Shown here: one piece after another, positions 36,425 through 59,873 of the stretch
Layout: each line of letters opens with the position of its first letter
How positions within the stretch are numbered: the first letter of the stretch is position 1
DNA from: Aquificota bacterium
GTDB taxonomy: Bacteria > Aquificota > Aquificia > Aquificales > Aquificaceae
Length of the DNA: 64,000 nt
Direction: 5' to 3'
Assembly (NCBI GenBank): GCA_018771605.1
Contig: CP076324.1
Coordinates: 496,001 to 560,000, forward strand
The notes under the pieces: generated by a model
Told to the model about the DNA's origin: nothing
Database searches by the model: none
Seen by the model: only the letters and a program-made list of their open reading frames with translations
Program-made: the position numbers and the translations under genes

Positions 36425-37138
36425 ATGCCAATGGAAGTTTTGCCAGGCCCATCTGGATACATACCAACCCCTGCAGCCTTTGAGGGTGTGGAACTACCAC
36501 CACCGGGAAAGGCCTTGCTTTATGGAAAGATAGTGGATGAAGAAACGGCTATGAGAGAAGCCGCAAAGGCGATGCTTACAAGAAGAAATCCAACCATATT
36601 TCCTGGTCCATTAGTTCTATGGGGTTGGAACGCCAGCGCCATGGAAAAGGCAAAGGCTATTCTTGAGCTTGCAATGGAAATACCAAATTGCAGAATCATA
36701 CCTATGCCAGATTATAGGCCCAAATATCCTAAGATAGACCCAGAGGCTGAGATAAACCCCAACCATCCAAATCTTACCATTCTCCACAATAAGATAGAAG
36801 CCTGTATTTTTGTGGGTGTGCATTGCCACTATGCCAATCTATCCCTTAGGATGATAAGGGCTGGAACAAATTGCTTTACCATAGCCCTTTGTGCGGAGAT
36901 GGGCCATGAGGATGCCATGGTATCTCTGAGGGATGTGCATGCCGACGAGATAAGAAGATTTAAAGACGTACTTATACAAGTTAGGGAAGAGCTTGGAATA
37001 AAGTGGGAGCCCAAGCTTCCGCCAGAAAACCCATCCCTTCCCAAGGAAGAGTACCAAACTCTTTCTGTGCTTGACTATGGCGAGTACTCTTATCTTTTGA
37101 TCCCCAGAAGGGGAGAGCATGTAACAGAAAGCGAATAA
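36425..37138 (+). CDS. 2-oxoacid:ferredoxin oxidoreductase, D subunit (CdhB-like)
   Basis: 237-residue first subunit of a five-subunit oxidoreductase. The sequence has a CO-dehydrogenase beta/epsilon-like region (IFPGPLVLWGWNASAMEKAKAI). A His/Cys-containing stretch VGVHCHYANLSLRMIRAG is present. In Hydrogenobacter For and Por enzymes a homologous subunit accompanies alpha, beta and gamma. The order D-A-B-G-E matches the forDABGE operon as I recall it, whereas por is EDABG; substrate (pyruvate or 2-oxoglutarate) is unresolved. Confidence 0.8.
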   Translation: MPMEVLPGPSGYIPTPAAFEGVELPPPGKALLYGKIVDEETAMREAAKAMLTRRNPTIFPGPLVLWGWNASAMEKAKAILELAMEIPNCRIIPMPDYRPKYPKIDPEAEINPNHPNLTILHNKIEACIFVGVHCHYANLSLRMIRAGTNCFTIALCAEMGHEDAMVSLRDVHADEIRRFKDVLIQVREELGIKWEPKLPPENPSLPKEEYQTLSVLDYGEYSYLLIPRRGEHVTESE

Positions 37139-42679: not shown

Positions 42680-42711
42680 ATGTGGATAATCTTACGTAGG
42701 AGGTGATTGAG

Positions 42712-42948
42712 ATGGCAACAATAACACCAGACAAAAGCCTTGATGCTTCTGGGCTTAATTGTCCTCTACCAGTTTTAAAAACAAAAAAAGCTATTGAGGA
42801 ACTGCAATCTGGGCAGGTTTTAGAGGTTATAACCACAGACCCAGGTGCCAAGGCAGATATACCTGCCTTTTGCAACAGGACAGGTCATCAACTTTTGGAG
42901 ACGGTAGAGGAAGGAGGAAAGATCATCTTCTACATCAGGAAGAAATAG
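42712..42948 (+). CDS. tusA: TusA sulfur carrier protein
   Basis: 78-residue SirA-like carrier with DASGLNCPLPVL, the persulfidated Cys17 in the CPxP motif. TusA hands sulfane sulfur to DsrE proteins and to the sHdr system in sulfur oxidizers. ATG 42712 follows AGGAGGTGATTGAG; the GTG at 42703 lies in that site. It heads tusA-dsrE3A-dsrE upstream of sHdr. Confidence 0.92.
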   Translation: MATITPDKSLDASGLNCPLPVLKTKKAIEELQSGQVLEVITTDPGAKADIPAFCNRTGHQLLETVEEGGKIIFYIRKK

Positions 42949-42961
42949 GGAGGGATAAAAA

Positions 42962-43495
42962 ATGGCTACAGAAAGACTTGCCATAATAGCCACAAAGGGG
43001 ACCCTTGATATGGCTTATCCGCCACTTATACTTGCTTCTACGGCTGCTTCTCTTGGTATAGAAACGGCCGTGTTCTTCACTTTTTATGGTCTAAACATAA
43101 TCCACAAAAAGAAGATGCACGAGCTCAAGATAGCACCCATCGGAAACCCTGCCATGCCTATGGCCTTCCCACCCTCTATGCAAAACCAGGTAACTAATCT
43201 CATATCTTCCATCCTGCCAGGTCCTCCACAAATACTGGGAATCATCCCCGGGATGACAGACCTTATGAGCTTTATGATGAAAAAGACCATAAAGGAGCAT
43301 GGGGTTGCAAGCATACCAGAACTTTTAGAAGCTTGCAAAGAGGCCGATGTAAAGCTTATACCATGCCAGATGACCATGGAGCTTTTTGGATATAAGTATG
43401 AGGACCTCATAGATGGTCTTGAGCCACCCGCAGGTGCAGCCACCTTTATAAACTATGTAATTGAGGCAGACAAACCTATGATAATCTTTGTTTAA
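42962..43495 (+). CDS. DsrE3A-type sulfurtransferase
   Basis: 177-residue DsrE/F-like protein of the DsrE3 group: ERLAIIATKGTLDMAYPPL, the conserved PIGNPAMPM and IPCQMTMELFGY with the reactive Cys135. DsrE3A-type proteins exchange persulfide with TusA. GGAGGGATAAAAA sets the ATG. Located between tusA and a second dsrE-like gene. Confidence 0.88.
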   Translation: MATERLAIIATKGTLDMAYPPLILASTAASLGIETAVFFTFYGLNIIHKKKMHELKIAPIGNPAMPMAFPPSMQNQVTNLISSILPGPPQILGIIPGMTDLMSFMMKKTIKEHGVASIPELLEACKEADVKLIPCQMTMELFGYKYEDLIDGLEPPAGAATFINYVIEADKPMIIFV

Positions 43496-43506: not shown

Positions 43507-43923
43507 ATGGCTTATGAAAAGGTGCTGTTTTATATCTTAACCGTGCCTTTTTTTGAAAGGGCTGAGCCAACCACTGGTGAGCTTATCAATCCACAGGCTG
43601 GAGCTCCCTTCTTTTTAGCAACAGCTGCCACCACAATGGACTATGAGGTGGAAATGGTTATAACCTCTGAGGCTGGCTTTCTCCTTATGAGAGACAACGC
43701 AAAAAAGGTAAAGGTAAGGCCTGGTGTGGAACAAACGGTTTATGACTTTATAAAGATGGCAAAGGAAGCCGGTGTAAAGATATATCTTTGTGTGCCTTCC
43801 TTGGACCTTACGGAAATATACAAAAAGGAAGATGTGAATACTGAACTCTGCGATGGCATAATAGGTGGTGCTGCCTTTCTTGATAAGTTGATGAGTGGCG
43901 AGTATGCGGTTATCACCCTTTAA
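43507..43923 (+). CDS. DsrE/DsrEFH-like protein
   Basis: 138-residue DsrE-fold protein: KVLFYILTVPFFERAEPT, TTMDYEVEMVIT and KIYLCVPSLDLTEIY with Cys95 at the active-site position of the family. Substrate specificity cannot be predicted from length alone. AAGGAGGATAAAG before the ATG; part of the tusA-dsrE3A operon. The next gene has its own regulatory region. Confidence 0.82.
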   Translation: MAYEKVLFYILTVPFFERAEPTTGELINPQAGAPFFLATAATTMDYEVEMVITSEAGFLLMRDNAKKVKVRPGVEQTVYDFIKMAKEAGVKIYLCVPSLDLTEIYKKEDVNTELCDGIIGGAAFLDKLMSGEYAVITL

Positions 43924-44039: not shown

Positions 44040-44768
44040 ATGGATGGACATCCTTATGGATACAACCTCCCCATATCGGAGAAGACCAAGGCTGTGCCTT
44101 GGGAAGAAAAGGTCCGTATAGTAGAAGAGGTAAAATCGGACTTTCGCTTTAAGGAATACATCTTTGGCTGTCTTAACTGCGGTGTTTGCACCGCTTCCTG
44201 CCCTTCCAACAGGTTCTTTGACTACTCTCCCAGAGAGATAGTCCAAAGATTTCTGGAAGAGGATGTGGAAGTCCTCTATGACATGATGCATGAGTATATA
44301 TGGGCCTGTTCTCAGTGTTTTACCTGTTGGATAAGGTGTCCTTTTGTTAACAACCCGGGTGGCCTTGTGGCCATAATGAGGGAAGTGGCCGTTAGAAATG
44401 CCTTTGAAGCCACAAAGGACCTCCTCAAACCCTACGGAAGGGTTCTCCTTAAGGTTATGACCACAGGAAACCAGCTTTCTGCGGACATGCTCCAGCCCGA
44501 CTTCTTTCCAGACTGGGGTCCCAAGATGGCGGACAACATGGAAAACCTAAGGGCCAAAAGGCTTGCCATACCCTTTGATGTAGGAAAATCTGTGAAAACC
44601 GCTTGGGAAGTATCTCTGGAAACTGCCATAGAGATGTATACCATCTGGAGAGAGACGGGCATCTTTGAAATGCTTGAAAAGCTTGACCCCAACCTCTACA
44701 ACGTCATAATGGATATAGTGGAAGAAAATGAAGAAAGGTATGAGGAACTCTATGAGGAAGAGGAGTAA
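44040..44768 (+). CDS. shdrC1: sHdrC1, iron-sulfur subunit of the sulfur-oxidizing Hdr-like complex
   Basis: 242 residues with two [4Fe-4S] motifs: C44/47/50/54 (CLNCGVCTASCP) and C90/93/96/100 (CSQCFTCWIRCP), as in HdrC. Probable electron conduit from HdrA flavin to the HdrB site. It heads the core operon C1-B1-A-hyp-C2-B2. AAAGGAGGTTTAGAA precedes the ATG. Confidence 0.92.
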   Translation: MDGHPYGYNLPISEKTKAVPWEEKVRIVEEVKSDFRFKEYIFGCLNCGVCTASCPSNRFFDYSPREIVQRFLEEDVEVLYDMMHEYIWACSQCFTCWIRCPFVNNPGGLVAIMREVAVRNAFEATKDLLKPYGRVLLKVMTTGNQLSADMLQPDFFPDWGPKMADNMENLRAKRLAIPFDVGKSVKTAWEVSLETAIEMYTIWRETGIFEMLEKLDPNLYNVIMDIVEENEERYEELYEEEE

Positions 44769-44816: not shown

Positions 44817-46172
44817 ATGGCACACGGGCATGGTTTTGGACATAACAGCCCAGGAGGGCTTTTGAGGTATCCAGAAAAGCCGCCTTTCCCGCTCAAGGAG
44901 TATAACGCTCACTACGACCACATCTTTGAAATGATGGAAGAGCTTGAGGCAAAGGGCGAAATTCTCATACATAGAATCACCGAGGAACATCAACCTGTAG
45001 AGGTCTACACAAGAACTGGAAGGATAAAGCTTATACCCACCAACAAGCTTTGGCACCACAAGTCTTGTGGTCAGTGTGGAAACATACCAGGATACCCAGC
45101 TTCTATCTTTTGGTTTATGAACAAGTTTGGCCTTGACTATCTCAATGAACCACATCAAACCTCTTGTACCGCATGGAACTATCACGGCTCTGGCACATCC
45201 AACCCTGTAGCCCTTGCAGCAGTTTGGCTCAGGAATATGCACCAAGCTTGGAAGACAGGCTACTATCCTCTAATCCACTGTGGAACCTCTTTTGGTTCTT
45301 ATAAGGAGACAAGGGAACAGCTCATTATGAACAAGGAACTAAGGGATGCGGTAAAGCCCATCCTCAAAAAGCTCGGAAGGCTTACAGAGGATGGAAGGAT
45401 AGTAATACCACAAGAGATAGTTCACTACTCCGAGTGGGTCCATGCTATGAGGTATAGGATCGCCGAACTATATCAAAAGGAAGGAAAGCCCAAGGGCATA
45501 GATGTTTCCAACGTAAGGGTTGCTATACACAACGCTTGCCACACATACAAGATGATAGCTGACGACTATCCTTATGACCCAGAGGTCTTTAACGGCCAAA
45601 GGCCTGCCGCTTCCACCGCTGTAGTCAAGGCTCTTGGCGCCCAAGTGGTGGATTACTCCACCTGGTATGACTGCTGTGGCTTTGGCTTTAGACACATACT
45701 AACAGAAAGGGAATTTACCAGGTCTTTTGCCATACAAAGGAAGCTAAAGGTTATAGCCGAAGAAGTAAAGGCAGACCTTATAGTTACTCACGACACTGGT
45801 TGCACCACCACCTTTGAAAAGAACCAGTGGATAGGAAAGGCTCATGGTATGTACCATCCTGTAGCCGTTATGTCCGATGTTATGTTTGCAGCTTTGGCAT
45901 GTGGCGCCCATCCCTTCAAAGTGGTCCAGCTCTACTGGAACTGCTCCAACTATGAGCCACTCCTTGAGAAGATGGGTATTACCAACTGGAGAGAGCTAAG
46001 GAAAGAATGGGAAGACACGGTCAAGTACATAGCTGAGCTTGAAAAGGCGGGCAAATACGACGAGCTTATGGAGTTCTTCAAGGAGTATGACCTTTATGAG
46101 CCTTACAGCAGAACGTCCACAGGAAAGCCAAGGGCTTCTGCAACGGCCAATATGCCTCTGTTTAAGTCCTAA
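44817..46172 (+). CDS. shdrB1: sHdrB1, CCG-domain catalytic subunit
   Basis: 451 residues with long N-terminus (SCGQCGNIPGYP) and a CCG motif WYDCCGFGFRH in the C-terminal half, plus THDTGCTTTFE. CCG-domain cysteines bind the noncubane [4Fe-4S] clusters in HdrB. sHdrB1 is longer than methanogen HdrB (about 300), typical of the sHdr type. Sits in the putative sulfane-sulfur oxidizing core with sHdrC1. TTAAGGAGGTGTAATC precedes the ATG. Confidence 0.92.
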   Translation: MAHGHGFGHNSPGGLLRYPEKPPFPLKEYNAHYDHIFEMMEELEAKGEILIHRITEEHQPVEVYTRTGRIKLIPTNKLWHHKSCGQCGNIPGYPASIFWFMNKFGLDYLNEPHQTSCTAWNYHGSGTSNPVALAAVWLRNMHQAWKTGYYPLIHCGTSFGSYKETREQLIMNKELRDAVKPILKKLGRLTEDGRIVIPQEIVHYSEWVHAMRYRIAELYQKEGKPKGIDVSNVRVAIHNACHTYKMIADDYPYDPEVFNGQRPAASTAVVKALGAQVVDYSTWYDCCGFGFRHILTEREFTRSFAIQRKLKVIAEEVKADLIVTHDTGCTTTFEKNQWIGKAHGMYHPVAVMSDVMFAALACGAHPFKVVQLYWNCSNYEPLLEKMGITNWRELRKEWEDTVKYIAELEKAGKYDELMEFFKEYDLYEPYSRTSTGKPRASATANMPLFKS

Positions 46173-46219: not shown

Positions 46220-47278
46220 ATGGCTAAAAGTGTGTTGGTAATCGGAGGTGGTCCTGCTGGACTTTCAGCAGCAAGGGCTTTGGGAAGGCTTGGTGTTCCC
46301 ACCATACTGGTGGAAAAGGATGGCCAGCTTGGTGGAAACCCCATCAAAAACCACTACCACACCCTCATTCCAAGGAAGCTAAAGCCCTCTCAAGTGATAG
46401 GCCCCTACATAAAGGAGGTGGAGAGCAACCCCAACATTAAAGTGCTTCTTAATACGGAGCTTACCGCTTGTGAGGGTGAGGCAGGTTCCTTTAAAGTGAC
46501 CCTTTCCAACGGAGAAAAGCATGAGGTAGGTGCTATCATAGTGGCCACAGGCTTTGAACACTTTGACCCAAGAAGGAAGGGAGAGCTTGGCTATGGCCTC
46601 TATCCCGACGTTATAACAAACCTTGAGCTTGAAAGGATGTTCTCTCAAGAAGGAAGGCTATACAGACCTTCCAACGGGCAGTTGCCCAAGAGGGTTGCTT
46701 TTGTCTTCTGCGTTGGTTCCAGGGACAGACAGCTTGGAGTTACCAACGTGCACTGCTGTAGGTATGGTTGCGCCCTCTCTGGCCTTCAAGGAATGGAGAT
46801 AAGAGAACATTATCCAGATGTGGATGTTTTCTGCTACTACATGGATGTAAGAACCTACGGCACATGGGAATATCCCTTCTACTGGGCGCCACAGGAGAAG
46901 TACGGCGTTAGGTATGTAAGGGGTAGGATAGCGGAAATAACCTACAGCCCTGCCGATGGTAGGCTAAGGGTAAAGCATGAAGATACCATAGTGCAAAGGC
47001 CTTCTGAAGTTCCTATGGACCTTGTGGTGCTTGTGCTTGGCATGGAGCCATCCCCAGGAACAAAGAAAGTAGCCAAGATACTAGGACTTTCCCAAGATCC
47101 AGACAGCCAATTCCTCATACCTTCCGATGAATCTGGTTCCAACATCATATCCAACAAGCCCGGCATATTCATAGCTGGAGCCTGTAAGGGACCCATAGAC
47201 ATAGAGTCTTCCTTCTCCGAAGGCGAAGCCGCAGCCGCAGAAGCTGCAGCCTTTATAGGCGCAAAGGTGACCGTATGA
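46220..47278 (+). CDS. shdrA: sHdrA, FAD-binding subunit
   Basis: 352-residue flavoprotein: FAD motif VIGGGPAGLSAARALG and a cysteine group CVGSRD...HCCRYGC for an unusual [4Fe-4S] cluster, conserved in HdrA. It is much shorter than methanogen HdrA (about 650) and lacks the added ferredoxin domains, as is typical for sHdrA. Receives electrons during sulfane-sulfur oxidation and donates to an unknown acceptor. AAGGAGGTTAAAA precedes the ATG; ends overlapping the hyp gene (ATGA). Confidence 0.93.
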   Translation: MAKSVLVIGGGPAGLSAARALGRLGVPTILVEKDGQLGGNPIKNHYHTLIPRKLKPSQVIGPYIKEVESNPNIKVLLNTELTACEGEAGSFKVTLSNGEKHEVGAIIVATGFEHFDPRRKGELGYGLYPDVITNLELERMFSQEGRLYRPSNGQLPKRVAFVFCVGSRDRQLGVTNVHCCRYGCALSGLQGMEIREHYPDVDVFCYYMDVRTYGTWEYPFYWAPQEKYGVRYVRGRIAEITYSPADGRLRVKHEDTIVQRPSEVPMDLVVLVLGMEPSPGTKKVAKILGLSQDPDSQFLIPSDESGSNIISNKPGIFIAGACKGPIDIESSFSEGEAAAAEAAAFIGAKVTV

Positions 47279-48009
47279 AGAAGCCAGTTATACTTGATGA
47301 CTTTCTTGTAAGGGACTATCTGATAAAGATACTGGGAGAAGGCGAGGAGTTTGTGCAAGAGTTTTATAAAGACCTCCTCGCCAAGTCCCTCCTATTTCAA
47401 CAGGCTTTTAGCAAAGAAAAACTTGCCTCTCTTACCCAAGAGGATTTGGACCTCATACTTGAAAAGATCTTTGCAGCAAGGAGAAGAAGACAAAAGATTT
47501 TGGAAGAGACAGGAGTGGACAGGCTAAAAAGAGCCATAAGCGACCTGCTTTATGGAAAGGCTAAAAGCTGGGAAGAAAGGGTGGAGAGGTTTGTAAAGGA
47601 GATAAGGGGCGTAGATAGAAAGATGGCAAGGGATATAGCCAGTGAAATACTCCACTTTACCTTTCCAGAGGAGTATGTGCTTTGGACCAGTTGGATATGG
47701 GACCCGGAAAGCGAAAGCGGTGCCATCGTCTTTTTAAAGGAAGAGCCTCCCAAAAAGAGCCTATACGGAGAGACCTACGAGGAGTTTGAACCCATTTACA
47801 AACAGATTCAGGAGAAGCTACTTGACTTTGGTATAAAGGTAAAGGGCTATCTTTTTGTGGATATATTCCTTGCCATGATATACGCCACCTATGTGGACTA
47901 TATGACCTTATCCACCATGCATAGCGCCAAGGGCTTTTTCCCGCCTGCGGGTGTTATGGCAAGAAGGCTCCTTGGCGTTATTAGAAAGGAAGACCTTTTG
48001 GAGGTATAA
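47275..48009 (+). CDS. sHdr-associated conserved hypothetical protein (Hyp)
   Basis: 244-residue, mainly helical protein without cysteines: DLILEKIFAARRRRQKIL, HFTFPEEYVLWTSWIWDPESESG. It occupies the position of the conserved hyp gene between hdrA and hdrC2 in sHdr clusters (C1-B1-A-hyp-C2-B2). No function is established. Translation coupled to sHdrA (4-nt overlap); sHdrC2 starts 3 nt after. Confidence 0.85.
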   Translation: MKKPVILDDFLVRDYLIKILGEGEEFVQEFYKDLLAKSLLFQQAFSKEKLASLTQEDLDLILEKIFAARRRRQKILEETGVDRLKRAISDLLYGKAKSWEERVERFVKEIRGVDRKMARDIASEILHFTFPEEYVLWTSWIWDPESESGAIVFLKEEPPKKSLYGETYEEFEPIYKQIQEKLLDFGIKVKGYLFVDIFLAMIYATYVDYMTLSTMHSAKGFFPPAGVMARRLLGVIRKEDLLEV

Positions 48010-48012
48010 ACC

Positions 48013-48771
48013 ATGGCAATACACGAAAGAAGCCTTGTAGAGCCAGAGAGAATCCTAAGAAAAGAGAGGCTTGTAATTGATGGTGTGGATGTATCTGGGG
48101 ACTGGAACCTTATCATACTCCCCAGGGTTATAAGCGACTATGACCTTGACTTTGCCAAGGAGATCATAAACTCTCCCGACGGCAAGACCATAAACCAATG
48201 CTACCAATGTTCTTACTGTACAGCCTCATGCCCAGTCCATAACTACTGGGATGAAAGGTACAATCCAAGGCACTTTATCTACCTTGCCAGGCTTGGCCTC
48301 ATAGATGAGCTTCAAAAAAGAGCGGATGTAATGTGGAGGTGCGTCTCTTGCCACAAATGCACCCACAGATGCCCAAAGGGTGTTTTGGTGGAAGAGGTGC
48401 TAAAGGTTATCCTAAGGACCATGGCCAAGAAAGGCCTAATAGAGGAATATCCTTCCAAGAAGTTTGACAAGTTCTTTACCGAGTCTGTGCTTGAGTATGG
48501 AAGGATAGAGGATGGTGAGCTTCTCTTTGGATGGATAGAAAAGCAAGGCTACAAGGTCTTCAAAGACCCCATACTCAAAAAGCCTGTGCCTTTTATAGGA
48601 GAAACACCCGAGTGGCTAAAACAGCTTACCCTAAAACCAATAAAGTCTATGAACATAGACTTCCTAATACTAAACGCCAAGCACATGCTCTTCCACCCCA
48701 GAACCAAAAACTGGAGCAAGTTCAAACAGGTTTTGCGTAAAGTTATGCAAGAAGAAGGAGCATTACATTAA
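48013..48771 (+). CDS. shdrC2: sHdrC2, iron-sulfur subunit
   Basis: 252 residues with two [4Fe-4S] motifs: C63/66/69/73 (CYQCSYCTASCP) and C110/113/116/120 (CVSCHKCTHRCP). Second HdrC paralogue of the complex, paired with sHdrB2. Located between the hyp gene and hdrB2. It shares no extensive similarity to sHdrC1 outside the clusters. Confidence 0.92.
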   Translation: MAIHERSLVEPERILRKERLVIDGVDVSGDWNLIILPRVISDYDLDFAKEIINSPDGKTINQCYQCSYCTASCPVHNYWDERYNPRHFIYLARLGLIDELQKRADVMWRCVSCHKCTHRCPKGVLVEEVLKVILRTMAKKGLIEEYPSKKFDKFFTESVLEYGRIEDGELLFGWIEKQGYKVFKDPILKKPVPFIGETPEWLKQLTLKPIKSMNIDFLILNAKHMLFHPRTKNWSKFKQVLRKVMQEEGALH

Positions 48772-48783
48772 GGAGGTTAAGAA

Positions 48784-49743
48784 ATGGGTGTGATAGGAAA
48801 AAGAGTGGCATACTACCCAGGCTGTTCCCTTGAGGGTGCAGCAAGGGCTTATGATGTTTCCACCAGAATAGTGGCTAAGGAGCTTGGCCTTGAGCTTGAC
48901 TACCTTGAGGACTACAACTGCTGTGGTGCCATGGAGTCCAAAAATGTGACCTTTATGGGCACCATGCTATTAAACGCCAGAAATATGTCCCTGGCAAGGA
49001 AGCAAGGACACAACGTAATAGTGGCACCCTGTAATGGATGTTCCTTTTCCCTACAGAGGGCCGAATACTTCTTGGAAACAGACAGGGCTGTTTATGAAAA
49101 GGTGAATGCCCTCCTTAGAGAAGGTGGTGTGGACCCCTTAGACCAAATACCCCATACCTACCATATCCTTGAGTGGTTCTACCATGAGGCAGGGCCTCAA
49201 AAGGTCAAGGAAAAGACCAGAAAGCCCTTAAGAGGCCTAAAGGTGGCCAACTACTATGGATGCCTATACACAAGGCCACACTTCTATTCTAGGACCTACG
49301 CCCACGCGGGTGGTCAAGACGAAGAGGCAAGGCCAAGAAGAAGGGAAACGGCGGACGATGATGAACATCCTTACTACATGAACGCCCTCCTTGAGGCAGC
49401 TGGAGCAACCAGCGTAGAGTTTGAACCTATGCATACCCAATGCTGTGGAGGACCTCACTCCCTATCGGACGAGATGGTTTCTGAGAAGTTTGTAATGATG
49501 ATACTACAGACTGCCAAAAGGAACGGTGCGGATATTATAGCTACTGAATGTCCTCTCTGCCATGCTTCCCTTGAAATGTACAGGCATAGGCTAATGATGA
49601 AAGGTGTACCCGATGTGGATGTGCCCGCAGCCTACTTTACACAACTTCTTGGGCTAGCCTTTGGCTACAGCGCCAACGATGTTAAGTTAAAGGACAACCT
49701 TTCTGATCCTCTGCCAGCTCTCAAAAGATTAGGATTGGCATAG
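48784..49743 (+). CDS. shdrB2: sHdrB2, twin CCG-domain subunit
   Basis: 319-residue HdrB-type subunit with two CCG domains: YPGCSLEG...NCCGAMESK...PCNGCS and YGCLYTRP...QCCGGPHS...ECPLCH. Length matches methanogen HdrB. Probably binds two noncubane [4Fe-4S] clusters and forms the thiol-oxidizing site. Downstream is lbpA1 at 9 nt. AAGGAGGTTAAGAA precedes the ATG. Confidence 0.93.
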   Translation: MGVIGKRVAYYPGCSLEGAARAYDVSTRIVAKELGLELDYLEDYNCCGAMESKNVTFMGTMLLNARNMSLARKQGHNVIVAPCNGCSFSLQRAEYFLETDRAVYEKVNALLREGGVDPLDQIPHTYHILEWFYHEAGPQKVKEKTRKPLRGLKVANYYGCLYTRPHFYSRTYAHAGGQDEEARPRRRETADDDEHPYYMNALLEAAGATSVEFEPMHTQCCGGPHSLSDEMVSEKFVMMILQTAKRNGADIIATECPLCHASLEMYRHRLMMKGVPDVDVPAAYFTQLLGLAFGYSANDVKLKDNLSDPLPALKRLGLA

Positions 49744-49752
49744 GAGGACGGC

Positions 49753-50232
49753 ATGGGATTGGTGCAGGAGCCTCAAAGTTCTAACGAATGGGAATACAAC
49801 GGATGTGTAATTCCATTAGACCTTTACTATGATATAGAAACACAAACCTGGCTAAGGGTTAATGAAGATGGTACAGTTACTATGGGCCTTACGGATGTAG
49901 GCCAGGTTAGGGCTGGGAGGCTCCTGCACGCAAGGATAAAGGACAAGGGTAAGGTTATAAAAAAGGGAAAGCCTGTGGCATCTTTGGAAAGCGGTAAATG
50001 GGCAGGTCCCATAAACGCCCTTGTAGAAGGCGAAGTGATTGAAAGGAACGAAAAGGTCTTAGAACAGCCCGATATAATAAACTATGACCCCTATGGTGAA
50101 GGTTGGATAGTTAAGATGAAGCCCTTTGACTTAGAAAGGGACCTAAAGGACCTGCTCTATGGCAAAGATGCCATAGAGGAGATGAGAAAGTATATTGATG
50201 AGTGGGATATAATCTGTATGAGGTGTACATGA
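49753..50232 (+). CDS. lbpA: LbpA1 lipoate-binding protein (GcvH-like)
   Basis: 159-residue GcvH-like protein; lipoyl Lys82 in ASLESGKWAGP. In sHdr organisms LbpA carries lipoate as the sulfur substrate-binding swinging arm and interacts with sHdr. The usual GcvH glycine-cleavage partners are absent here. C-terminal Cys-containing tail (IICMRCT). Overlaps the thioredoxin-like gene by ATGA. Confidence 0.9.
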   Translation: MGLVQEPQSSNEWEYNGCVIPLDLYYDIETQTWLRVNEDGTVTMGLTDVGQVRAGRLLHARIKDKGKVIKKGKPVASLESGKWAGPINALVEGEVIERNEKVLEQPDIINYDPYGEGWIVKMKPFDLERDLKDLLYGKDAIEEMRKYIDEWDIICMRCT

Positions 50233-50489
50233 TGGCGGCAAAGGACAAGCATGTAATATTGCTTGTTTCTCAATGGTGTGCCACATGTCCAGATGCAGAT
50301 GCCTTATGGAGAAAATTGCAAGCAGAATACGGCTTTAAGTATGAGGTTTTGGACGTGGCACAGCCAGAGGGTAGGATGTGGGCAAAGAAGCTAATTGTTA
50401 GAGCGGTACCTTCCACCATAATAGACGGGAAGCTTGCTTTCGTTGGCGTGCCAGAGGAATCCGAAGCCAGGAGGGCGATAGAGTCGTGA
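50229..50489 (+). CDS. Thioredoxin-like protein with CATC active site
   Basis: 86-residue small thioredoxin-fold protein: LLVSQWCATCPDAD, Cys17/20 in place of WCGPC, cis-Pro in RAVPSTIIDG. No export signal, so cytoplasmic; it may reduce lipoate or LbpA/DsrE persulfides. Start ATG 50229 overlaps the lbpA1 stop; an earlier in-frame ATG at 50202 lies inside lbpA1. Overlaps the next gene by GTGA. Confidence 0.8.
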   Translation: MMAAKDKHVILLVSQWCATCPDADALWRKLQAEYGFKYEVLDVAQPEGRMWAKKLIVRAVPSTIIDGKLAFVGVPEESEARRAIES

Positions 50490-50875
50490 AGGTTATCATC
50501 CTTATGACCAGCGGACCAAGGACGCCTTGGCGTTGTGCCTCACCCTTCTACATTGCTGCCCTTATGGCTGCCAACGAGGCTGAGGTGGAGATGTTCTTTA
50601 ACATGGATGGAACAAGACTCCTCAAAAAAGGTGTAGCAGAAAGAATAATCCCGGGCGAGCCTAACTGCCTTTCACCCAACGGTAAAAAGTTAAAAACGGT
50701 TTATGATTTTATGAAGGATGCTAAGCAAGCTGGAGTTAAATTTTACTCCTGCAAACAAGCCATAGATTCCTTGGGCTACAAGCCTGAGGACTTAATACCA
50801 GAATTGGATGGTGTTTATCCAGCCAGTGAGTTTGCCCTTAGGGCTATGGAGGCTGATAAGGTGCTAACTTTTTAA
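50486..50875 (+). CDS. DsrE-family protein (second type)
   Basis: 129-residue DsrE fold: KVIILMTSGPRTPWRCASPFYIA and KFYSCKQAIDSLGY with Cys89 at the usual active site. Start is GTG 50486, overlapping the thioredoxin-like stop by 4 nt. Its position between two lbpA genes suggests sulfur transfer to or from lipoyl-LbpA. Not seen in minimal sHdr clusters. Confidence 0.8.
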   Translation: MKVIILMTSGPRTPWRCASPFYIAALMAANEAEVEMFFNMDGTRLLKKGVAERIIPGEPNCLSPNGKKLKTVYDFMKDAKQAGVKFYSCKQAIDSLGYKPEDLIPELDGVYPASEFALRAMEADKVLTF

Positions 50876-50898
50876 ATTTCTATAAAGGAGGGTAAAAC

Positions 50899-51345
50899 AT
50901 GGCAACAGTCAATGGGTGCAACATACCCGAAGACCTTTTATACGATGTGGACCCAGAAGCCAACGCCTTTACCTGGGCAAAGGACAACGGCGATGGCACC
51001 TACACAGTAGGGCTTACCTCTGTAGCAGCCGCCATGGCTGGTAGGCTTGTGGCATACACACCCAAAAAGCCCGGAAAGGTCATAGAAAGGCGCAAGAGCA
51101 TAGCTACCATAGAAAGCGGTAAGTGGGTTGGACCAGTGCCTACACCTCTAACCGGAGAAATAGTGGAAATAAACGAGGCTCTGAAGGGAAATCCTGCACT
51201 TGTAAACGATGACCCTTACGGCGCTGGATGGATAGCCAAGATAAAGCCTACAAACCCAGAAGAAGTAAACAATCTTCTAAAGGGCCAAGCTGCCGTTGAT
51301 GCTCTTACCAAGGTAATAAACGAAAAGGGCATAAAATGCGGATAA
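50899..51345 (+). CDS. LbpA2, second lipoate-binding protein
   Basis: 148-residue GcvH-like protein with lipoyl Lys75 in TIESGKWVGP. Diverged from LbpA1, especially at both ends, so not a recent duplication. Separate partners are likely: different sHdrB/C pairs or different lipoylation enzymes. The last bases overlap the radical SAM gene by 10 nt. AAGGAGGGTAAAAC precedes the ATG. Confidence 0.88.
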   Translation: MATVNGCNIPEDLLYDVDPEANAFTWAKDNGDGTYTVGLTSVAAAMAGRLVAYTPKKPGKVIERRKSIATIESGKWVGPVPTPLTGEIVEINEALKGNPALVNDDPYGAGWIAKIKPTNPEEVNNLLKGQAAVDALTKVINEKGIKCG

Positions 51346-52355
51346 TAGACCTAAGGGGTGGTTTGTCCCACCCCTCCTTAGAAGATATTGAGCTTGATAA
51401 GGAGCTTCTTGAGGAGCTAAAGGAAGGCTTTGAGATAAGGTTAAAGAACTTTGGCAAAGATATACACTTTCATAGTCCGGGCTTTAAGCACTATGAAGTG
51501 GATGATTTTTCCATAAAAAGTGGTCCGAAGTTTGTGGATATATCCATAACCGGTAAAAATTGCGAGCTTATGTGCGACCATTGCGCTTCCAAAATCCTCT
51601 GGCATATGATACCAGCTACAACGCCAGAAGAGCTTTGGAAGGTGGCCAATGAGTTAAAGGCCAAGGGAATAGATGGTGTTTTAATATCCGGGGGTTCCAA
51701 TAAGGATGGTGTGGTGGAACTATACCCCTTTTTGGATGTAATGAGAAGGATAAAGGAAGAGCTTGGTATGTTTGTTAGCTGTCATGTGGGCCTTGTGGAC
51801 AAAAGGCTCTCTGAAGGCCTAAAAGAAGCAAAGGTGGATGCAGTGCTTTTGGATATAATAGGCGATGACCAGACCATTGCAGAAGTTTATAAACTGCCTC
51901 ACAAAAGCACAAAGGATTATGAAGAATCTCTTAGACTTTTAAAAGAAGTAGGACACAATATAGTCCCCCATGTGATAATAGGACTTTATTACGGGCAGAT
52001 AAGGGGTGAGTACAACGCCATAGATATGATAGCCCAGTTTGACCCTTCCGCCTTGGTTATGGTGGTGGTTATGCCCTACTACGGAAAGGCACGCTTCCAG
52101 CTTTTACCCCCACCAAAGCCAGAGGATAGTGCAAGGGTTATCTTGCATGCAAGGAAATCCTTACCTAAAAGGCCTGTGGTTATAGGGTGTGCAAGACCTG
52201 CAGGTCCAGAGAGGATAAGGTTTGACCTTTATTCTCTGTATGCGGGTGTAAACGGCATAACTTTCCCGGCGGAAGGCATTTTTACCCACGCCAAAAGCCT
52301 TGGTCTAAACCCAATAATCTCACCCAACTGTTGTTCAACCGTATTTTTGCATTAA
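51336..52355 (+). CDS. Radical SAM protein, candidate LipS-type sulfur inserter for LbpA
   Basis: 339-residue radical SAM enzyme: CELMCDHC (Cys76, 80, 83; CxxxCxxC) inside a TIM barrel with ISGGSNKDG, and further cysteines in IGCARPAGP and PNCCSTVF that could bind a second cluster. In sHdr organisms LipS1/LipS2 radical SAM proteins with sLpl(AB) make lipoate on LbpA. This gene may be one of them, inferred from 10-nt overlap with lbpA2. The partner and the ligase are not in the window. I am less sure which of S1 or S2. Confidence 0.65.
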   Translation: MRIIDLRGGLSHPSLEDIELDKELLEELKEGFEIRLKNFGKDIHFHSPGFKHYEVDDFSIKSGPKFVDISITGKNCELMCDHCASKILWHMIPATTPEELWKVANELKAKGIDGVLISGGSNKDGVVELYPFLDVMRRIKEELGMFVSCHVGLVDKRLSEGLKEAKVDAVLLDIIGDDQTIAEVYKLPHKSTKDYEESLRLLKEVGHNIVPHVIIGLYYGQIRGEYNAIDMIAQFDPSALVMVVVMPYYGKARFQLLPPPKPEDSARVILHARKSLPKRPVVIGCARPAGPERIRFDLYSLYAGVNGITFPAEGIFTHAKSLGLNPIISPNCCSTVFLH

Positions 52356-52358
52356 ATG

Positions 52359-53294
52359 TTATTGCTCTACAAGCTCAACCCTTCTATTTTTTGCCCTTCC
52401 TTCTTCTGTTGAGTTTGGAACCACTGGTGCAAGCGGACCTACTCCAAAGGCTTTTAACCTGTCTTGTCTAATTCCGTATATTTCCACCAGTTCTTTCACT
52501 ACTGCCTCTGCCCTTTTCTTAGAAAGCTCCATGTTATATTCTAACTTTCCTACATTATCAGTATGCCCAACCACATAGACTTTTATTTCGGGATGTTCTT
52601 TTAGAAATCTGGCTATTTCCTCAATGGTTGGTTTGGACTCTGGTTTTATTTCCGCTTTGTTAAAGTCAAAATAAATTCCATAGATAGCAACTTTTCCTTC
52701 ACTTTTTATTGTCTTATATATATCTTCAGCCCTAATTAAACCTCTCTCAATTTCCTTTTTTTCAACTATTCCTAAAAAGACTTTTGGACCATCAAAGCTT
52801 GGTAAAATGCCTAAAGCCAAAACTATATTTTTACTTTTGTTTCTTGCAGATAAGTAAAAGAAGTTTTTCTCGTCATCTGCTGTAGCGTATACATTCCAAA
52901 AGTAAGGATAAAGGAATCTTCTTAATCCTGCAATTTCCCTTCCTCTTGCTGAATAAATAACCTCAAATCCAGCTTTTTTAAGCGCTTCTTCATAATTCTT
53001 GAATACTTCAAGAGGTGATCTGTTTTGTGGGCACTGATATTGGATCTTAGTGATCTTACCTTCTAATTTTTCCTTTTTTGCAAGTTGCATATCTCTATCG
53101 GAAGAACCTTTTATAGGTCCAAGGAGTATTTCAAACTCATCAAATTCTTTCTGTTCGTAATGATAAATAAAAGAGCCAGGATATCTTGAAATAATTGGGT
53201 GATCTTTGCTTCCAGGAACATCTTGTTGTGAAAAGGCAGGCGTAATACATATAAGCAAAAGCATGAGTTGTAAAATAATATTAATCTTTGACAT
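52359..53294 (-). CDS. OmpA-family outer-membrane protein with DUF4892-like N-terminus
   Basis: 311 residues: signal peptide (about 1-22), a DUF4892-like domain starting DVPGSKDHPIISRYPGS, and a C-terminal OmpA domain (about 200-311) with VVGHTDNVGKLEYNMELSKK, NRRVEL. The OmpA domain binds peptidoglycan. Third gene of an exported-protein operon, 1 nt after the propeller gene. Codon and base composition are more A+T-rich than the flanking genes. Confidence 0.85.
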   Translation of the reverse strand: MSKINIILQLMLLLICITPAFSQQDVPGSKDHPIISRYPGSFIYHYEQKEFDEFEILLGPIKGSSDRDMQLAKKEKLEGKITKIQYQCPQNRSPLEVFKNYEEALKKAGFEVIYSARGREIAGLRRFLYPYFWNVYATADDEKNFFYLSARNKSKNIVLALGILPSFDGPKVFLGIVEKKEIERGLIRAEDIYKTIKSEGKVAIYGIYFDFNKAEIKPESKPTIEEIARFLKEHPEIKVYVVGHTDNVGKLEYNMELSKKRAEAVVKELVEIYGIRQDRLKAFGVGPLAPVVPNSTEEGRAKNRRVELVEQ

Positions 53295-58132: not shown

Positions 58133-58788
58133 CACGCCGGGTGAGAAATTAGACCTCAAGTTCACCCCTCCTGTAATAACTATATCCAATAGCATAAGCA
58201 TATACATACACAAGCACACAAGTTAAAGTCCTCCACCCACTACCAGCATTAAAAAGCTTTATCTGACTTATAACACCTTCCACTACCTGCCTTTTTGCCC
58301 TCATCTCCCTACTACCACACACAATCACACCTTCACAACCCCTATAACCCCTATCTCCATACACCACACAACTCTCCACAAGCTTCCTAAACCATAAACT
58401 CCTTCTCTTCCTTTCCCTAAATGCCCTAACCTCATGCACACTTCCAAAGCTTATCCACACATCATAAACTCTTCCCCACCTATCACATAACACCATCATC
58501 AACATGCCATACCTGACCTCCTCAAACTCCACTACCTTCCCATTGTCTCTCCGAACTATCTTCCTTCTCCTCTTTGCCCACCATACCTTCCCTCTTACCC
58601 TCCTTATCTTCTATGTCCTTGCCCTGTTTACATTGGTTATGTCCACTATGGTTCCATCTATTACAAGTTCTATCTTCTTACCATACAAAAGCTTTACCAA
58701 AATCGTAAGCTTGAACTTAAAAAGCTGGTATTCTCTCAATACCCTGTATATTCTCTTCTTTATTGAAGGGAATTTCTTACCCTGCGTA
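58133..58788 (-). mobile_element. Small degenerate insertion sequence (about 656 bp)
   Basis: Terminal repeats CACGCCGGGTGAGAAATT (58133-58150) and, inverted, TACGCAGGGTAAGAAATT (58771-58788) match at 15 of 18 positions. The interior encodes a DDE transposase. No target duplication could be recognised. It lies between the truncated usher and thrC. Unusually short for its class, so internally deleted or truncated. Confidence 0.75.
58149..58786 (-). pseudogene. DDE transposase (IS4/IS5/IS982-like) with in-frame amber stop
   Basis: In one frame the translation reads VIDGTIVDITNV (first Asp), an internal TAG at 58611-58613, then KIRRVRGKVWW, VVYGDRGYRGCEG (second Asp) and KRQVVEGVISQIK (Glu). 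Both halves continue exactly across the stop, so a nonsense mutation is the simplest reading. N-terminus is short. Inactive unless the amber codon is read through. Confidence 0.75.
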
Positions 58789-58814
58789 TAGGTTATAATA
58801 TTCTGCGGTTTATT

Positions 58815-59873
58815 ATGAGCTACTGGCGAGGTATAATCCATAAGTATAAGGATTTTCTGCCAATAACCGAAAGGACACCTATAATAACTCTCTGCGAGGG
58901 CAATACTCCTCTCATACACGCAGAAAACCTTGCAAAGGCTATAGGTTTTAAAGGAGATGTATTCTTAAAATACGAGGGCCTTAACCCTACGGGTTCTTTC
59001 AAGGACAGGGGGATGACTGTGGCCATTTCAAAGGCCGTGGAAGCTGGCAAAAAGGCTGTTATATGTGCTTCCACTGGAAACACCTCCGCTTCTGCCGCTG
59101 CCTATGCTGCAAAGGCAGGGCTAAAGGCTTATGTTCTGCTTCCAAAAGGAGCTGTTGCCCTTGGAAAGTTATCCCAAGCTGTAATCTATGGAGCCAAGGT
59201 TATAGCCATTCAAGGAAACTTTGATGATGCTTTATACATAGTTAGAAAGATAGGGGAAGTTTTGCCCGTGGAGATTGTAAACTCTGTAAACCCTTATAGG
59301 ATTGAAGGACAAAAGACGGGAGCTTTTGAAGTGTGCGATGCCCTTGGAAGGGCGCCCGATTATCATTTCATACCAGTAGGAAATGCGGGCAATATAACGG
59401 CCTACTGGAAAGGCTATAAGGAGTATTACCAAGTTGGTAAGATAAACAACCTTCCAAGGATGATGGGATGGCAAGCAGAAGGTTCGGCTCCCATTGTAAA
59501 GGGCTATCCTATAAAAAACCCTCAAACCATAGCCACCGCCATAAGGATAGGGAATCCCTATAGCTGGCAGTCTGCCTTACAGGCTATGCATGAGTCTAAA
59601 GGCCTTATAGATGCGGTTAGTGATGAGGAGATTTTATATGCCTATAAGCTTATAGCCTCAACGGAGGGTATATTCTGTGAGCCAGCTTCTGCTGCCTCTG
59701 TGGCGGGACTTATAAAGCTTACGCGTGAAGGCTACTTTAAGGGTGGAGAGTTGGTGGTATGCACCCTTACAGGAAATGGTTTAAAGGACCCAGATACAGC
59801 CATAAAGGTGTGCCAAGAGCCTATTACTCTACCACCAGAGGTGGATAAGGTAATAGAAGTTATAGAGGTATGA
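58815..59873 (+). CDS. thrC: Threonine synthase
   Basis: PLP enzyme making threonine from O-phosphohomoserine. 352 residues; PLP Lys63 in GSFKDRGM, the phosphate-binding loop GNAGN and [22 protein letters not shown] (58794-58799) lies 15 nt before the ATG; its -35 region falls inside the IS terminal repeat. No Shine-Dalgarno is evident. The next gene tsaC overlaps by 4 nt: threonine then feeds t6A synthesis. Confidence 0.94.

Follow-up and report, generated by a model that had tools for sequence, protein, structure and literature searches.

A probable lipS1 gene closing the sHdr operon of an Aquificaceae bacterium, and a lipoate ligase fused to DUF116-like and CODH-epsilon-like domains

The last gene of the sHdr operon in the window, the 64-kb stretch of an Aquificaceae genome analyzed here, is very likely lipS1, a gene of the sLpl(AB)-LipS1/LipS2 pathway already known for lipoate assembly, with the pathway steps as proposed below from sequence. 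Presence, synteny, cysteine spacing, and co-occurrence speak for this reading, and the points that we counted against it are a shortfall of 7 bits from the cut-off of the LipS1 model NF053742, a LipS2 below its own cut-off, the CX8C pair of that LipS2, the presence of LipA and LipM, and the small number of independent losses. The system is mostly a known one; the ligase fusion and a stem-loop after lbpA2 look new.

Results

The operon runs in the order TusA, DsrE2, DsrE3-like, sHdrC1, B1, A, a hypothetical protein, C2, B2, LbpA_a, thioredoxin-like, DsrE-like, LbpA_b, and LipS1 (Table 1), and a convergent gene lies right after lipS1, at 52359. Orthologues of the sHdrB2-like protein were found in 57 of the 136 phylum genomes that formed our comparison set, every one of them in the Aquificaceae, the family of the window organism. 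The lbpA2 product, LbpA_b, carries the LbpA feature set of a lipoyl lysine (Lys75, in ESGK) together with N- and C-terminal cysteines absent from GcvH (Cys7 and Cys147), the C-terminal cysteine being a conserved LbpA trait (PMC6067878). No Rfam family was found in window positions 49700 to 52500. Elsewhere in the window, two neighboring ORFs (58149-58919, minus strand) resemble fragments of a broken transposase.

Table 1. Genes and elements of the sHdr operon, in window positions
Feature	Position	Strand	Evidence
TusA	42703..42948	+	PF01206 3.9e-29
DsrE2-like protein	42962..43495	+	PF13686 4e-50
DsrE-family protein (DsrE3-like)	43507..43923	+	PF02635/PF13686
sHdrC1-like	44040..44768	+	HdrC models
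sHdrB1-like	44817..46172	+	HdrB models
sHdrA-like flavoprotein	46220..47278	+	HdrA models
Conserved hypothetical of the sHdr cluster	47275..48009	+	no family match; syntenic in relatives
sHdrC2-like	48013..48771	+	HdrC/QmoC models
sHdrB2-like, CCG domains	48784..49743	+	PF02754
Second lipoate-binding protein (LbpA_a), Lys82, Cys18/155/158	49753..50232	+	GCV_H 1e-39
Thioredoxin-like protein	50232..50489	+	PF13192 3.8e-13
DsrE-like sulfurtransferase, between trx and lbpA2	50486..50875	+	PF02635 1.7e-15; syntenic in relatives
lbpA2-type lipoate-binding protein (LbpA_b), 148 aa	50899..51345	+	GCV_H 5.5e-41
lbpA2/lipS1 reading-frame overlap, 10 nt, ATGCGGATAA	51336..51345	+	ORF positions
Predicted LipS1-type lipoyl synthase (lipS1), 339 aa, last gene of the sHdr operon	51336..52355	+	NF053742 LipS1 4.2e-66
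Stem-loop AGGGGTGG-TTTGTC-CCACCCCT, within the first lipS1 codons, just 3' of the lbpA2 stop	51354..51375	+	

The original prediction described a CxxxCxxC radical SAM protein with extra C-terminal cysteines, its frame overlapping lbpA2 by 10 nt, and proposed a LipS-type enzyme. The shared positions and the motif are as described: C76/C80/C83 are the same in 12 of 12 aligned relatives, and C285 (GCARPAGP) and C332/C333 (NCCSTVF) are invariant in these 12. Comparison with the curated models also favored a LipS-type enzyme over an unrelated radical SAM family, given that NF053742 matched with 223.3 bits over profile positions 5-268 of 268, 7 bits short of the curated cut-off of 230, while NrdG2 and BioB followed with only 29-31 bits and neither the LipS2 model nor the LipA model (TIGR00510) matched at 1e-3. 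Orthologues in 36 of the 136 phylum genomes, some in the organism's own genus and mostly with the same synteny, exceed the NF053742 cut-off. The auxiliary cluster of T. kodakarensis LipS1 requires C230/C276/C277, as determined by mutation (PMC9585515), and the C...CC spacing of 47/48 in the window protein compares with 46/47 in that enzyme. The invariant H212, 129 residues after the third motif cysteine, may by its spacing correspond to T. kodakarensis H159, the fully conserved histidine of LipS1, which stands at 125. The least conserved stretch of the protein is its first N-terminal residues.

The predicted structure (pLDDT 81) is nearest to HydE and biotin synthase, with LipA lower down, and such a BioB/HydE/LipA-like fold is expected for a BioB-like lipoyl synthase. 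With LipS1 of T. kodakarensis, Thioalkalivibrio, and H. denitrificans the protein shares the radical SAM motif and the spacing of the three auxiliary cysteines, and with LipS1 of the sLpl(AB)-LipS1/LipS2 pathway it shares lbpA and sHdr neighbors and a genome that also encodes LipS2 and the ligase. Canonical LipA likewise makes lipoyl groups with radical SAM chemistry and a sacrificial auxiliary cluster, and two LipA occur in this genome as well, but the window protein has neither the RSSY motif nor a LipA model match. We considered that it might be another BioB-like or NrdG-activase-like radical SAM enzyme that merely resembles LipS1, as the weak secondary BioB and NrdG2 matches and the score just below the cut-off could suggest; the gap between 223 and 29-31 bits, an auxiliary cysteine spacing that fits LipS1, the lbpA2 and sHdr neighbors, and the LipS2 gene adjoining in genus g4 mostly refute this identity and make it highly improbable.

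No second LipS or ligase gene was found within the 64-kb window, and the expectation that both would be encoded elsewhere was borne out in the complete genome, a single contig (C1) of 1,722,082 bases. A family search gave 24 radical SAM genes, of which 23 regions were read, and an NCBIfam scan covered ten proteins, chiefly LipS and LipA candidates. A LipS2-like protein is encoded at C1:1677289-1678404 (NF053743, 7.2e-61, 206 bits, cut-off 270), and the LipS2 proteins of Aquificaceae all fall below this cut-off (~205 of 270 bits). Its cysteines comprise the radical SAM set C55/C59/C62 and also C104, C310, and C319; the C310/C319 pair forms a CX8C present in all 30 Aquificaceae members read, whereas LipS2 of T. 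kodakarensis has CX2C at its C-terminus. The ligase lies at C1:1703889-1706069, more than 1 Mb from lipS1, as does LipS2, and a LipT-like FAD oxidoreductase (38% to an actinomycete protein) at C1:257348-258301. The LipS2 at C1:1677289 led us to discard the idea of a solitary LipS1 that acts, together with LipA, on its intermediate. In sulfur oxidizers the published cluster is lipS1-slpl(AB)-lipT-lipS2 (PMC10332631), whereas here lipS1 is the only one of these genes in the sHdr operon, with lipS2, the ligase, and the LipT-like gene scattered; the rule of a 2018 survey that maturation genes lie strictly in the hdr operon in all analyzed Aquificae (PMC6067878) thus fails for this genome. In genus g4 (L140, L156, and L157), lipS1 and lipS2 adjoin in the sHdr operon, and a FUN14 gene after lipS2 is common to g4 and the window genome. 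The window arrangement looks as though it had been split from an older cluster, or else the g4 genes look joined.

The genome also encodes a canonical route, in the form of a LipM-like transferase of 213 aa and two LipA that exceed the TIGR00510 cut-off, as well as five GcvH-like proteins, two of which are the LbpA pair. A GcvH/LbpA-like protein with an ESGK-type lysine lies beside formate dehydrogenase-like genes at C1:1187797-1188147 (L074:4669-5190).

The ligase is a 726-aa protein (L068:7890-10070) in which LplAB, a DUF116-like region, and a CODH-epsilon-like domain are joined. Like sLpl(AB) lipoate:protein ligase, it has an LplA-B catalytic domain (3.4e-43) and an LplB-like C-terminal domain, which together make up LplAB (residues 1-350), and it differs in the fusion to the two further domains. 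The middle region gives a sub-threshold DUF116 match and is rich in invariant cysteines (PYCAKPxWCDYRHxDDCGECGGC, WC, HCC, and TTC), and a CO_dh (CODH/ACS epsilon) domain follows (5.9e-33). The structure model of the DUF116-like domain was poor (pLDDT 64), with no significant PDB fold match. Nearly all LipS1-bearing Aquificaceae have the fused ligase. In genus g5 its middle region is 82% conserved vs 31% for the ligase part, and this genus (L138:5356-7359 and L137:5282-6313) has a separate stand-alone LplAB (46%) beside the fused protein with its divergent ligase part, as if the ligase role had moved to the stand-alone protein. A stand-alone CODH-epsilon-like protein in the window (36506-36952), with 36% identity to the C-terminal domain of the fused ligase, adjoins 2-oxoacid:ferredoxin oxidoreductase-like genes. 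One scan of genome contigs returned just three clearly distant LipS1 loci (L186, L187, and L189). The first, in an actinomycete metagenome-assembled genome (L186:8924-12490, JAJRWQ010000014.1), has four consecutive frames, lipS1, ligase-DUF116, lipT, and lipS2, which provides an independent link between DUF116 and the pathway. The ligase-DUF116 frame there has one in-frame stop at ~10285, a sequencing error or real, and is open beyond it.

Aquificota LipS1 and LipS2 were already known from a 2023 survey, which recovered them as a monophyletic cluster. Across the 136 phylum genomes, LipS1, full-length LipS2, and the fused ligase are confined to the family of the window organism, and we counted co-occurrence in its 42 good-quality genomes. 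Of these, 37 have both LipS1 and LipS2 and 3 have neither; for LipS1 and the fused ligase the counts are 38 and 3, and for LipA and LipM 35 and 5. With few independent losses and P values inflated by shared ancestry, these counts support rather than prove membership in one module. LipT tracks more loosely, several good genomes with LipS1 and LipS2 showing a weaker paralogue alone. In nearly all family loci with enough sequence, the gene immediately before lipS1 encodes LbpA2 (66-97% identity), genus g11 and one further genome (G013) being the exceptions.

Two genera form a clean contrast. The two complete g5 genomes have sHdr, LipS1, and LipS2, lack LipA and LipM, and encode three GcvH-like proteins instead of five; g10 has sHdr, both LbpA, LipA, and LipM, and lacks LipS1, LipS2, and the fused ligase. 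The draft genome G043 is also without LipA and LipM, so that LipS1 and LipS2 are the sole lipoyl synthases found in it, as in g5; in both, a further GcvH-like protein remains despite this. The draft has two LipS1 copies (C3:28255-29064 and C47:3811-4620); since one of them lies at the edge of a contig, it could stem from contamination. That the g10 LipA serves as a replacement gene within the sHdr cluster is a weak reading, since this LipA lies ~8 kb off with other genes between and is not in the same operon.

The proposal that lipS1 is dedicated to LbpA therefore describes the common arrangement rather than a strict rule, given the two LipA and the LipM-like protein of this genome, g5 with LipS1/LipS2 and neither LipA nor LipM, and g10, where sHdr occurs with LipA. 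The two LipA and the LipM-like transferase that we found could in principle modify LbpA. LipS1/LipS2 would thus in principle not be indispensable for LbpA, given that this genome has LipA and LipM as well and that g10 has sHdr with LipA alone. We regard it as unlikely, though, that LbpA receives its lipoyl group through the canonical LipM-like/LipA route here, with LipS1/LipS2 redundant or serving another protein. The genes for that route are present, and g10 retains sHdr and both LbpA with LipA as the sole synthase; against this, LipS1 is kept beside lbpA2 across the family, LipM and LipA track each other, LipM of B. subtilis failed to modify LbpA in vitro (PMC6067878), and g5 lost LipA and LipM while retaining sHdr and LipS1/LipS2. 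Synteny and the specificity of the published system suggest that LipS1 acts on LbpA in this organism.

The original prediction took the 10-nt overlap as tying lipS1 to lbpA2. LbpA2 ends in ...EKG(I/V)KCG* in most genera, and the codons for Lys (AAA/AAG) and Cys (TGT/TGC) in succession, AAR-TGY, always spell ATG or GTG in the shifted frame. Because the conserved Lys-Cys end itself supplies the start codon in the -9 register, the overlap is weak evidence of coupling. It is also not universal: it occurs in g1, g4, g8, g9, and some g3, whereas other genera have a gap of 36-52 nt (~430 nt in g5), and genomes with the 36-52 nt gap have the same Lys-Cys end with the LipS1 start downstream. Functional coupling of LipS1 output to LbpA2 translation is conceivable but doubtful. 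The register is the same in g1, g4, g8, g9, and some g3, and a possible Shine-Dalgarno sequence, AAAAGGG, precedes the start, but the conserved EKG(I/V)KC end brings both the start codon and the GAAAAGG-like stretch with it as a by-product, other genera have a gap, and the position of the stem-loop is kept with or without overlap. The conserved lbpA2-lipS1 order and the stem-loop are more telling than the overlap.

Of 46 distinct family loci, 26 have a GC-rich stem-loop, counted as a perfect stem of at least 7 pairs, in the 60 nt that follow the lbpA2 stop, compared with 12 of 920 random upstream windows. After most other operon genes the count was 0-1, with 8 of 25 after sHdrB1 and 5 of 21 after DsrE3. 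The sequences differ among loci while pairing is kept, whether the site codes for LipS1 or is intergenic; the stem-loop is absent in Aquifex, and also in g10, whose locus is without lipS1. Minimum free energy z-scores over 66 nt were weakly negative (median -1.17), and the perfect-stem count is the clearer test. A canonical terminator was rejected, as terminator-like sites were no commoner than chance, with none at 51354. From the sequence we infer a putative 3'-end or attenuation element that may keep LbpA2 above LipS1.

Discussion

The sLpl(AB)-LipS1/LipS2 pathway has been proved in H. denitrificans and Thioalkalivibrio (PMC10332631), and in the published order of steps LbpA first receives octanoate from the ligase, then sulfur at C8 through LipS2 and at C6 through LipS1 (PMC10332631, PMC9585515). 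In the window organism, the ligase domain of the 726-aa fusion would adenylate octanoate and load it onto the lysine of the ESGK motif in the LbpA proteins that the sHdr operon encodes, after which LipS2 would insert sulfur at C8 and LipS1 at C6 of the 8-mercaptooctanoyl substrate. Electrons would probably arrive via the LipT-like oxidoreductase, possibly also via the DUF116/CODH-epsilon part of the ligase, and LipM and LipA would serve the other GcvH-like proteins. Translation of lipS1 would begin at the start codon that arises from the Lys-Cys end of LbpA2, and the stem-loop after the lbpA2 stop probably holds LipS1 low relative to its substrate.

Any role of the DUF116-like and CODH-epsilon-like parts is one that we infer from the fusion and the cysteine content. 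We tentatively suggest, as a possibility with less in its favor than against it, that the cysteine-rich middle domain of the three-part ligase passes sulfur, iron-sulfur clusters, or electrons to LipS1/LipS2, and that the lbpA2 stem-loop fixes the ratio of enzyme to substrate. A partial literature search found no paper joining DUF116 to lipoate and none with the three-part ligase architecture, and on that partial search the three-part ligase, the DUF116 link, the clean g5/g10 contrast, and the stem-loop are provisionally new.

In summary, every component of the LipS1/LipS2 pathway could be located in a single complete genome of the Aquificaceae. The family offers a natural experiment, with one genus that has LipS1/LipS2 only, one that has LipA only, and a remainder that mostly has both, and a comparison of lipoylation states between g5 and g10 could tell whether LbpA maturation requires LipS1/LipS2. 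The fusion suggests that DUF116, a domain of unknown function, may be a partner in the making of lipoyl groups, and the suggested role of the three-part ligase, if true, would answer how the sacrificial clusters of LipS1 and LipS2 are rebuilt.
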